From contig NZ_JAMZDX010000006.1 in assembly GCF_024172095.1 (NCBI RefSeq), forward strand, positions 434,001 to 498,000: 64,000 nucleotides of DNA, in the 5' to 3' direction. Within the stretch, counting starts at the first letter, position 1. Every line of letters starts with the position of its first letter. The notes under the pieces were generated by a model. That model saw nothing but the letters and a program-made list of their open reading frames with translations. It was not told the origin of the DNA and made no database searches. The stretch is from Kitasatospora cinereorecta (GTDB taxonomy: Bacteria; Actinomycetota; Actinomycetes; Streptomycetales; Streptomycetaceae). A program made the position numbers and the translations under genes. Of the stretch, positions 43,707 to 47,147 are shown piece after piece.

Positions 43707-45344
43707 TCAGGTGACGTCGCGGGTCATGTCGACGAAGCGGGAGTAGTGGCCCTGGAAGGCCACCGTGATGGTGGCGGTGGGGCCGTTACGGTGCTTGGCC
43801 ACGATCAGGTCGGCCTCGCCGGCGCGCGGGGACTCCTTCTCGTACGCGTCCTCGCGGTGCAGCAGGATGACCATGTCGGCGTCCTGCTCGATCGAGCCGG
43901 ATTCGCGGAGGTCGGAGACCATCGGCTTCTTGTCCGTACGCTGCTCGGGTCCACGGTTCAGCTGGGAGAGCGCGATGACCGGCAGCTCCAGCTCCTTGGC
44001 CAGCAGCTTGAGGTTACGGGACATGTCCGAGACCTCCTGCTGGCGGCTCTCGGCGCGGCGCGAGCCACCGGACTGCATCAGCTGGAGGTAGTCGATGACG
44101 ACCAGTCTCAGGTCGTTGCGCTGCTTGAGGCGTCGGCACTTGGCCCGGATCTCCATCATCGACAGGTTCGGCGAATCGTCGATGTAGAGCGGGGCGTTGG
44201 TGACGTCGGGCATCCGCCGGGCGACCCGGGTCCAGTCGTCGTCGGTCATGTTGCCGGAGCGCATGTGGTGCAGCGCGACCCGGGCCTCGGCCGACAGCAG
44301 GCGCATGGCGATCTCGTTGCGCCCCATTTCGAGCGAGAAGACCACGCTCGGCAGCTGGTTGTGGATCGAGGCGGCGCGGGCGAAGTCCAGCGCCAGGGTG
44401 GACTTACCCATGGCGGGTCGGGCCGCGATGACGATCATCTGGCCGGGGTGCAGGCCGTTGGTGAGGGCGTCGAAGTCGGCGAAACCGGTGGGGACGCCGG
44501 ACATCTGGCCGGCCCGGGAGCCGATGGCCTCGATCTCGTCGAGGGCGCCCTCCATGATCTCGGAGAGCGGGGCGTAGTCCTCGTTGGTGCGCTGCTCGGT
44601 GACGGCGTAGATCTCGGCCTGGGCGGCGTTGACGATCTCGTCCACGTCGCCCTCGCCGGCGTAGCCCATGCCCGCGATCCGGGTGCCGGCCTCGACCAGG
44701 CGGCGCAGCACGGCGCGCTCGTGGACGATCTCGGCGTAGTACTCGGCGTTGGCCGCGGTGGGCACCGAGTTGACCAGGGTGTGCAGGTAGGAGGCGCCGC
44801 CGACGCGGGCGAGCTCGCCGCGCTTGGTGAGCTCGCCGGCGACGGTGATCGGGTCGGCCGGCTCGCCGCGGGCGTAGAGGTCGAGGATGGCGCCGTGGAT
44901 CAGCTCGTGGGCGGGCCGGTAGTAGTCGGCGGGCTTGAGCACCTCGACCACGTCGGCGATGGCGTCCTTGGAGAGCAGCATGCCGCCGAGGACGGACTGC
45001 TCGGCCGCCAGGTCCTGCGGCGGGACGCGCTCGAAGCCGTCGCCGGCGCCGCCGCGGTCGTCCCGGTCGCCGTCGCGCCGGTCGCCGCCGCCCTTCCCCT
45101 GGAAGCCCTTGCCCTGGTAGCCCTTGCCGTCGCGGCCGCCCTGGCCGTCGCGCTGGGAGAAGCCCCCGCCCTGACCGCCCTGGCCGTCGCGCTGCGGGAA
45201 GCTCCCCTCCCGGCGGCGGCTGACCGGCAGGCGGTCGCCGGGGACGTCGGGGAAGGCGTCCGGGGAGAAGGCGTCGTCGGACGGCTGCCAGTCGTCCTCC
45301 GGCGGCGGCGGGACGTCGTGGTCGTCGTACTGGGGGCCGGTCAC
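43707..45344 (-). CDS. dnaB: Replicative DNA helicase DnaB
   Basis: 545 residues. The N-terminal DnaB domain (about 105-205, VPPQDLAAEQSVLGGMLL) is followed by the RecA-like helicase domain with Walker A ARPAMGKST (K314), Walker B LVVIDYLQLM and the arginine-finger segment. No intein interrupts it. An unusual Gly/Gln/Lys/Asp-rich extension (about residues 45-100, with FSQRDGQGG- and QGKG-type repeats) precedes the N-domain. The GTG at 45344 was chosen for the GGGGAT site and the SDRLPVSRRR-type beginning; the frame opens further upstream. A DnaA-box cluster lies in its upstream region. Confidence 0.96.
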   Translation of the reverse strand: MTGPQYDDHDVPPPPEDDWQPSDDAFSPDAFPDVPGDRLPVSRRREGSFPQRDGQGGQGGGFSQRDGQGGRDGKGYQGKGFQGKGGGDRRDGDRDDRGGAGDGFERVPPQDLAAEQSVLGGMLLSKDAIADVVEVLKPADYYRPAHELIHGAILDLYARGEPADPITVAGELTKRGELARVGGASYLHTLVNSVPTAANAEYYAEIVHERAVLRRLVEAGTRIAGMGYAGEGDVDEIVNAAQAEIYAVTEQRTNEDYAPLSEIMEGALDEIEAIGSRAGQMSGVPTGFADFDALTNGLHPGQMIVIAARPAMGKSTLALDFARAASIHNQLPSVVFSLEMGRNEIAMRLLSAEARVALHHMRSGNMTDDDWTRVARRMPDVTNAPLYIDDSPNLSMMEIRAKCRRLKQRNDLRLVVIDYLQLMQSGGSRRAESRQQEVSDMSRNLKLLAKELELPVIALSQLNRGPEQRTDKKPMVSDLRESGSIEQDADMVILLHREDAYEKESPRAGEADLIVAKHRNGPTATITVAFQGHYSRFVDMTRDVT

Positions 45345-45521
45345 GCGAAATCCCCGATCAGCGAATGCGGTGCGAGTTGGTGCGGGCCTGTCCGATGGCG
45401 CATCCTCATTTCTTACGCCATCGGGAGGACAAAGTCCGGCCCCCGGCGGGCGGTGTCGCGCGGCCACACAGGTCTGGTCCTCGCCCACGCTACGGGGGGT
45501 GGGGGCGTTCCTCCAAGGTGG

Positions 45522-45610
45522 TTATCCACAGGCTGTGTGGATAACCGAGCCGCCGCTGTGGAGAACCGGCCCAAAGCTGTGAACAACCCTGTGGACACCT
45601 CTGTGGATAA
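45522..45610. promoter_or_regulatory. Cluster of six DnaA-box-like sites upstream of dnaB
   Basis: TTATCCACA at 45522-45530 (plus). On the other strand: TGTGGATAA at 45536-45544, TGTGGAGAA at 45557-45565, TGTGAACAA at 45578-45586, TGTGGACAC at 45590-45598 and TGTGGATAA at 45602-45610. The first two form an inverted pair. Three match TTATCCACA exactly and the others differ by one or two bases. A seventh (TGTGGATGA) is at 45775-45783. Confidence 0.8.
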
Positions 45611-45760
45611 CCACACGATCGCGTTGGTGTCAACTCGCTGACCTGGCACTACTCCGCCCACCGCCTGTGCATGAGAATTTCTTCACACAGGCCGCGAGGC
45701 GCTCGCCACACCGTTCGAGCGACCGTTCGATCGGGGTGGCGAGTAATAGGCCACAGGCAC

Positions 45761-45790
45761 TTGTGCCACTTACCTGTGGATGACTACCCT
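45761..45790 (+). promoter_or_regulatory. MATE gene promoter, leaderless type, overlapping a DnaA-box-like site
   Basis: -35 TTGTGC (45761-45766), 18-bp spacer, -10 TACCCT (45785-45790), then 7 nt to the ATG at 45798. The seventh DnaA-box-like sequence (45775-45783) lies between the two hexamers. Confidence 0.55.
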
Positions 45791-45797
45791 AACCTTC

Positions 45798-47147
45798 ATG
45801 ACCACCGCCACCGACCGCCGCACCCAGGGCCGCGCGGACCGACGTCGCCACGACCGGGAGATCCTCGCCCTGGCCGTGCCAGCCTTCGGCGCGCTGGTCG
45901 CCGAGCCGCTCTTCCTGATGGCCGACTCCGCCATCGTCGGCCACCTGGGCACCGCCCAGCTGGCCGGTCTGGGCGTGGCCTCGGCCGCGCTCACCACCGC
46001 GACCGGCGTGTTCGTGTTCCTCGCGTACGCCACCACCGCCGCGGTCGCCCGCCGGATCGGCGCCGGCGACCGCCGGGCCGCGATCCAGCAGGGCATGGAC
46101 GGCATCTGGCTCGCGCTGATCCTCTCGGTCGCCGTGGTGGCACTCACCCTGGCCCTGGCACCGCAGGCGGCCGCCGCGCTCGGCGCCTCCCCCACCGCCG
46201 CCCCGTACGCGGTCACCTATCTGCGGATCAGCGCGCTCGGCGTGCCGGCCATGCTGATGGTGCTGGCCGCCACCGGTGTGCTGCGCGGACTGCAGGACAC
46301 CCGCACCCCGCTGCTGGTGGCGATCGGCGGCTTCGGCGCCAACCTGCTGCTCAACGTCGGCCTGGTGTACGGCGCCGGGCTGGGCGTGGCCGGCTCCGCC
46401 TGGGGCACCGTACTGGCCCAGAACGGCATGGCCGCGGTCTACCTGCTGGTCGTCGTCCGCGGCGCCCGCCGGGAGGGGGCGGGCCTGCGGCCGGACGCCG
46501 CGGGCATCCGGGCCTGTGCCCGCACCGGCGGCCCACTGGTGGTGCGGACGATCAGCCTGCGGGCTTCCCTGCTGGTGGCCACCGCGGTGGCGGCGAACCT
46601 GGGCGACGCCGAGGTGGCCGCGCACCAGATCACCATGACGGTGTGGTCCTTCGTGGCCTTCGCGCTGGACGCGACAGCCATCGCCGGGCAGGCGATCATC
46701 GGCCGCTTCCTGGGCGCCGGCGACGCGCCCGGGGCCCGCGCGGCGACCCGGCGGATGGTCCAGTGGGGCATCGGCTCCGGCGTGCTCTTCGGACTGCTGA
46801 TGGTGGCGGCCCGCCCGCTGTACGTCCCGCTGTTCAGCTCCGACCCGCAGGTCCGGCACCAGCTGGCGGCGGTGCTGCTGCTGGCCGCGCTCACCCAGCC
46901 GGTGGGCGGGCTGGTCTTCGTCCTGGACGGGGTGCTGATGGGCGCCGGCGACGGCGGCTACCTGGCCTGGGCCATGCTGGCCACCTTCGCGGTCTTCACC
47001 CCGGCGGCGCTGGCCGCTGTGGCACTCGGCGGCGGACTGGTCGGGCTCTGGTGGGCGATGAACCTGTTCATGCTGGTCCGCGCCGCCTTCCTGGGCCACC
47101 GGGCCCGCACCGGCCGCTGGCTGGTCACCGGCGCCGTCCGCGCCTGA
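45798..47147 (+). CDS. MATE-family efflux transporter (DinF-like)
   Basis: 449 residues with 12 helices and the MATE hallmarks EPLFLMADSAIVGHLGTAQLAGLGVA and GVLRGLQDTRTPLLVAIGGFGANLLLNVGLVYG. It probably exports cationic compounds using an ion gradient. The ATG at 45798 was chosen over an in-frame ATG at 45780 because of the promoter described separately. Confidence 0.93.
   Translation: MTTATDRRTQGRADRRRHDREILALAVPAFGALVAEPLFLMADSAIVGHLGTAQLAGLGVASAALTTATGVFVFLAYATTAAVARRIGAGDRRAAIQQGMDGIWLALILSVAVVALTLALAPQAAAALGASPTAAPYAVTYLRISALGVPAMLMVLAATGVLRGLQDTRTPLLVAIGGFGANLLLNVGLVYGAGLGVAGSAWGTVLAQNGMAAVYLLVVVRGARREGAGLRPDAAGIRACARTGGPLVVRTISLRASLLVATAVAANLGDAEVAAHQITMTVWSFVAFALDATAIAGQAIIGRFLGAGDAPGARAATRRMVQWGIGSGVLFGLLMVAARPLYVPLFSSDPQVRHQLAAVLLLAALTQPVGGLVFVLDGVLMGAGDGGYLAWAMLATFAVFTPAALAAVALGGGLVGLWWAMNLFMLVRAAFLGHRARTGRWLVTGAVRA

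Follow-up and report, generated by a model that had tools for sequence, protein, structure and literature searches.

The dnaB/MATE spacer and its DnaA boxes

The window (the whole 64-kb stretch of Kitasatospora cinereorecta DNA analysed here) contains a spacer between two divergent genes. On the minus strand lies dnaB (43707..45344), the gene for the replicative helicase, whose product matches the Pfam families DnaB_C (1.4e-106) and DnaB N-terminal (1e-34). Its likely start is the GTG at 45344, and the longest ORF opens at 45488. On the plus strand lies a gene for a MATE-family efflux protein (45798..47147; Pfam MatE, 4.2e-46), with a gene for ribosomal protein L9 (Pfam) beyond it. The spacer holds seven 9-mers that resemble the DnaA box, each at most one mismatch away from TTRTCCACA. 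Six of them fall within 89 bp (45522-45610): box 1 (TTATCCACA, 45522..45530) on the plus strand and, all on the minus strand, box 2 (TTATCCACA, 45536..45544), box 3 (TTCTCCACA, 45557..45565), box 4 (TTGTTCACA, 45578..45586), box 5 (GTGTCCACA, 45590..45598) and box 6 (TTATCCACA, 45602..45610). Boxes 1 and 2 are convergent, 14 bp apart. Box 7 (TCATCCACA, 45775..45783, minus strand) lies on the MATE side. The initial annotation had listed the same seven 9-mers, six of them in 89 bp and two of these as an inverted pair, next to a replicative helicase gene, and all of this is confirmed.

If one mismatch to TTATCCACA or TTGTCCACA is allowed, the 64-kb window has 10 sites; seven of the 10 are in the spacer, as are all three exact copies of TTRTCCACA in the window (each of them TTATCCACA; boxes 3, 4, 5 and 7 are the non-exact ones). 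The exact form TTGTCCACA, given in a review table as the high-affinity form of S. coelicolor, is absent from the spacer cluster, and box 3 fits the TT(G/C)TCCACA of the same review. When the window was shuffled 100 times (first-order Markov), the maximum number of sites per 89 bp was one in 95 shuffles and two in the other five, against six observed. When 280 kb of the same contig are scanned in 400-bp windows (step 100), at least six sites occur only in the dnaB spacer (three windows) and at oriC (six windows).

Predicted promoters on both sides of the spacer

The promoter hexamers of dnaB were assigned from conservation; a simple sigma-70 scan lists no promoter at these hexamers. Between box 1 and dnaB, the minus-strand hexamers TTGGAG (45511..45516) and TAGCGT (45487..45492) likely represent the -35 and -10 of dnaB, as judged from an alignment of 39 Streptomycetaceae sequences (rows). 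TTGG is kept in all 39 rows, and so is TANNGT, in the forms TACCGT (28 rows), TAGCGT (five), TACGGT (five) and TAACGT (one). The predicted -35 lies 18 bp before the -10 here, with a spacing of 17 nt in 33/39 rows and 18 nt in 6/39. Box 1 ends 5 bp from the predicted -35, a gap shared by 38 rows and widened to 6 bp in the remaining one. In S. coelicolor, dnaB is a member of the modelled HrdB regulon (PMC6344877), which agrees with our reading of the hexamers. From the sequence, the dnaB transcript is predicted to start near 45480. Its predicted leader contains a perfect 9-bp inverted repeat (CCGATGGCG / CGCCATCGG; 45392-45424, minus strand) with a 15-nt loop, and many aligned rows have a related GTGCC/GGCAC stretch nearby.

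On the MATE side, the aligned rows point to a plus-strand -35 (TTGTGC, 45761..45766) that lies 18 bp before a -10 (TACCCT, 45785..45790). Box 7 is located between these predicted hexamers, in line with the earlier placement of a seventh box inside the MATE promoter. The box also overlaps ATG 45780, the opening codon of the listed MATE ORF. The likely start of the MATE gene is ATG 45798 rather than ATG 45780, a choice guided by the promoter position. Because the predicted -10 ends 7 nt before ATG 45798, the MATE mRNA may be leaderless.

Conservation in Streptomycetaceae

The spacer alignment is composed of the window and 38 Streptomycetaceae loci (L001-L037 and L040), taken from the best 80 of 589 dnaB loci. 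Rows were excised around the word TGTGGATAA, which anchors them at box 1; all 38 loci contain this word, and none was dropped. One locus titled Saccharothrix (L002) was grouped with the Streptomycetaceae on the strength of 87% identity in DnaB, and a locus titled Streptomyces yangpuensis (L076, DnaB 69% identical) was counted among the non-Streptomycetaceae. The former, on a contig titled Saccharothrix sp. ST-888, is a streptomycete-type dnaB locus; the contig of the latter, with no boxes upstream of its DnaB gene, is perhaps a contamination.

Box positions have a mean conservation of 1.75 bits (n=59), versus 1.01 bits for the other spacer positions (n=375), and the linkers within the cluster have a mean of 1.03 bits. 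Shifting the box mask circularly gives a sum as high as the observed one in only one of 433 cases. The initial annotation had named low conservation of the boxes in related genomes as the result that would count against it, and the boxes turn out to be well conserved on average. Single boxes vary in this respect. Box 1 is identical in 39/39 rows, box 3 is an unchanged 9-mer in 32/39, and the place of box 7 keeps a TCCACA core in 39/39 with a variable third base. At box 2, 19/39 rows have TCGTCCACA and 9/39 have TCATCCACA. Box 6 appears as TTGTTCACA (16 rows), TTGTCCACA (15), TTATCCACA (five) or two other box forms, and is absent from one row. Boxes 4 and 5 are weak in relatives, where TCGTGCACA and CTGTCCACC are their most frequent forms; firm conservation is therefore limited to about four of the six cluster boxes. 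Ranked by conservation among 430 spacer 9-mers, boxes 1 to 7 take places 1, 31, 11, 40, 80, 37 and 21, and the spacer therefore has further conserved stretches. Two conserved blocks, 45638-45645 (CAGGTCAG) and 45664-45684 (T-rich, running into TGCACAG), are not full DnaA boxes.

Box density across the class Actinomycetes

Boxes are enriched upstream of dnaB well beyond the family. Among the best 80 of 589 loci, 42 are filed outside Streptomycetaceae; in these, the 700-bp stretches preceding the DnaB match contain 173 boxes in 29.4 kb, versus 76 boxes in 433.6 kb elsewhere (33.6-fold enrichment). We also hand-picked 40 class genomes from 158 (25 family handles contributed one genome each, six contributed two each and one contributed three); at least one box is present in 39/40 of their dnaB upstream regions. 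For 30 of these 40 genomes, the density upstream of dnaB is 5.22 per kb (94 boxes in 18 kb; Markov expectation 4.5 boxes), with at least two boxes in 25/30, and the density upstream of dnaA is 4.72 per kb. Comparison places in the same 30 genomes give 0.11 (FtsZ 5'), 0.11 (FtsZ 3'), 0.06 (SerS 5'), 0.23 (SerS 3') and 0.17 (CrgA 5') boxes per kb. Genomes from outside the class show weak enrichment: their dnaB upstream regions contain 21 boxes in 18 kb (1.17 per kb, vs 0.34 elsewhere), with at least one box in 16/30 loci and at least two in 5/30.

Some members of the class have few boxes or none. Among the regions outside Streptomycetaceae, 5/82 have no box and 13/82 have fewer than two; Blastococcus and Modestobacter loci (L051, L054 and L064) have zero to two, and three loci (L070, L076 and L079) have no upstream boxes. 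The convergent 14-bp pair is not class-wide, being found in 7/82 regions outside Streptomycetaceae.

A fixed distance between box and predicted promoter

Beyond the family, the distance between box and promoter can be followed with a strict pattern, TTGnnn-N16-19-TAnnnT. Retaining one box-promoter combination per region, we find that this pattern begins 4-8 nt after a box in 31/77 box-bearing regions outside Streptomycetaceae, and in no region at 0-3 or 9-15 nt. In 1000 rotations of the box positions the count has a mean of 3.3 and a maximum of 9, vs the 31 observed. Within these 31 regions the distance depends on strand, with 7-8 nt after plus-strand boxes and 4-6 nt after minus-strand ones. 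The strict pattern is missing after the box in the other 46/77 regions. The 31 regions are not independent, since 16 are from Microbacteriaceae and five are titled Arthrobacter (record names); one is from Pedococcus, one from Jiangella and eight are others, which belong to six further family handles that possibly overlap the named families. The named loci are placed in families by genus.

Two features of a DnaA-regulated dnaB promoter are thus found: DnaA boxes cluster upstream of the gene, and their position with respect to the promoter hexamers is conserved, in 39/39 Streptomycetaceae rows and, by the strict pattern, in only 31/77 other regions. We found no report of a class-wide box-to-promoter distance in the open literature, in searches that did not query the distance itself, and this distance is no topic of the available extracts of the mycobacterial account (PMC7738170).

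Other box clusters in the genome

Exact TTRTCCACA sites number 45 in the 8.64-Mb genome (9 contigs), compared with eight for the reversed control pattern. They gather around the origin, with 19/45 within 150 kb of oriC vs 1.56 expected if uniform. The origin itself (C6:517492-518056) has 19 sites with at most one mismatch and lies between ORFs that we take, from their sequences, to encode DnaA and DnaN. A distance of 38 kb separates it from the dnaB spacer. A comparison of 20 closed streptomycete chromosomes puts dnaB at the edge of the conserved island around oriC (PMC8743542).

We scanned 280 kb around the dnaB spacer for runs of at least three sites. Besides those of the dnaB spacer and oriC, one such run lies upstream of dnaA (C6:515287-515525), and another comprises three sites, each with at most one mismatch, within or next to a PASTA-kinase-like ORF (C6:537148-537252). 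A third, of four boxes, is located 3' of crgA, between the convergent rhomboid and crgA genes (C6:533616-533796, or L085:13616-13796). Boxes at this place recur across the class, with a density of 3.94 per kb, presence in 27/30 class genomes and at least two boxes in 21/30. Rv0011c is CrgA. This identity, the position of the cluster here and its presence in 27/30 genomes suggest that the crgA 3' cluster is the counterpart of the mycobacterial Rv0010c-Rv0011c site. We found no report in the open literature of a streptomycete counterpart of this DnaA site 3' of crgA.

A further run of six boxes occupies the serS/pheA spacer (C6:658672-659031, or L091:18672-19031). By its neighbourhood, this cluster is a candidate counterpart of the second mycobacterial site, one that is not class-wide. 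As a class-wide counterpart of the Rv3843c site it was rejected, with one box in 17.4 kb upstream of serS over 30 genomes; SerS 5' was used as a comparison place after that rejection.

DnaA as a probable regulator of dnaB

DnaA binding upstream of dnaB in mycobacteria and box clusters outside oriC in S. coelicolor are already in print. In M. tuberculosis, the region upstream of dnaB is among the five most enriched DnaA regions in vitro, and the homologous five regions were recovered in M. smegmatis by ChIP-seq (PMC7738170). The M. tuberculosis DnaA variant I282T shows weaker binding upstream of dnaB together with lower dnaB expression (PMC7738170), an effect from one mutant in one species that could be indirect. 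The neighbouring gene is the same in mycobacteria (Rv0057 region, PMC7738170), where DnaA binding upstream has been shown in vitro and in vivo, and the class-level genomes compared here have dense boxes at the same place. Unlike the mycobacterial system as published, the present spacer has a divergent MATE gene with box 7 at its start, and its boxes are predicted from sequence. Further afield, a review reports that predicted boxes precede dnaB in Caulobacter, where dnaB is a gene of the DnaA regulon (PMC8203912); the boxes and the DnaA dependence (Hottes 2005, via the same review) are like those considered here, in another phylum.

We consider it probable that the spacer is a DnaA-responsive promoter region of dnaB, probably activated by DnaA and possibly also titrating it. 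DnaA would bind the box group at 45522-45610, probably cooperatively; a single box is bound weakly by S. coelicolor DnaA (PMC4285127). The box next to the -35 would put DnaA about 42-50 bp upstream of the predicted start near 45480. From box 1, DnaA would touch RNA polymerase, most likely activating dnaB, and helicase supply would follow the DnaA level. Activators commonly contact polymerase from a site centred about 45 bp before the transcription start. For this species, we infer both the binding of DnaA and its direction of action, activation and not repression. On the other side of the spacer, box 7 would let DnaA hinder MATE transcription from between the predicted -35 and -10. The earlier suggestion that dnaB transcription is tied to DnaA gains support from the conserved abutment of box and predicted -35 and from the mycobacterial binding and expression data. 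DnaA is likely not the only input to dnaB, because in S. coelicolor the upstream region carries methylated cytosine and 5-aza-dC raises the dnaB transcript (PMC10148868).

The cluster could instead mainly store or inactivate DnaA after initiation, in the manner of datA, with its proximity to the dnaB promoter being incidental. Seven boxes 38 kb from oriC form a dense, early-replicated site outside the origin, and the genome-wide concentration of exact sites near oriC (19/45 within 150 kb) fits such a role. So does the crgA 3' cluster, which recurs class-wide though it is located between convergent genes in this genome; box clusters can therefore persist without a promoter. In M. tuberculosis, the genes flanking the corresponding Rv0010c-Rv0011c site are both unchanged in dnaA mutants (PMC7738170), and a review mentions datA-like clusters in S. 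coelicolor (PMC5742627). The S. coelicolor clusters (Smulczyk-Krawczyszyn 2006, PMC1595370), likewise in Streptomyces and outside oriC, repress untimely initiation according to the review that cites them. E. coli datA is, like the spacer, a box cluster outside oriC; it works with IHF and DnaA-ATP hydrolysis. What storage leaves unexplained is the spacing of 4-8 nt between box and -35, the 39/39 identity of the promoter-proximal box and the change of dnaB expression in mycobacteria, and we regard it as a rather unlikely main function. As a secondary role, the cluster may soak up DnaA soon after initiation, since at 38 kb from oriC it is copied early.

Repression of dnaB, by bending or crowding of its promoter as in repressive autoregulation of dnaA, we judge improbable. 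DnaA is stated to autoregulate through its own promoter in Streptomyces lividans (PMC8203912; the direction is not given there), and the box density upstream of dnaA about equals that upstream of dnaB. Yet the boxes end 5-6 bp short of the -35 without covering it, and in M. tuberculosis I282T weaker binding goes with lower, not higher, dnaB expression (PMC7738170). A second or former replication origin is hardly credible: the densest 100 bp hold as many boxes as the densest at oriC (6 vs 6), but 60-bp windows spanning the spacer have an AT fraction of 0.23-0.47, without any AT-rich block or unwinding element, and there are seven boxes vs the 19 at oriC, itself located between the ORFs read as dnaA and dnaN.

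As for earlier descriptions of the S. coelicolor clusters, they were reportedly named H69, H24 and D78 after cosmids. The dnaB spacer could correspond to H24, the crgA site to H69 and the serS/pheA site to D78; nothing relevant came up when the open literature was searched under the names of the clusters and cosmids.

A possible ancestral set of DnaA targets near oriC

Returning to a DnaA-responsive dnaB promoter, we lean slightly towards a wider reading, in which the class Actinomycetes retains an ancestral set of DnaA targets close to oriC: the dnaA promoter, a dnaB promoter locked to a box and the cluster 3' of crgA. At dnaB, a box locked 4-8 bp upstream of the -35 would allow DnaA to activate its helicase partner directly. 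The crgA 3' cluster, with no promoter here, would act in DnaA titration or in coupling to division. It would be the counterpart of the Rv0010c-Rv0011c site, mutations of which affect isoniazid susceptibility. If DnaA activates dnaB by a fixed contact across the class, then the supply of helicase is coupled to the potential for initiation. Such control of dnaB, if true, is testable by a few base changes.

A composite motif with paired boxes

A composite motif, GGGTGA-N5-GTTRTCCACA-N7-GTTRTCCACA, has two DnaA-like boxes 17 bp apart and occurs in seven copies in the genome with zero to two mismatches (reversed control, 0). The copies (L291-L297) are at C1:331364, C1:963397, C3:858895, C6:198161, C3:952321, C1:970072 and C1:1184819. 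They neighbour an SLBB/HHH ComEA-like gene followed by ComEC (Pfam Competence), YraN-ComM, a gene with weak ParA-like matches, DUF6099, rpsB and an mscL-like ORF (by eye). The motif may be the signature of a regulon of the competence type and not of DnaA sites. With at most two mismatches, it is present in 6/41 genomes of the family, from two genera.
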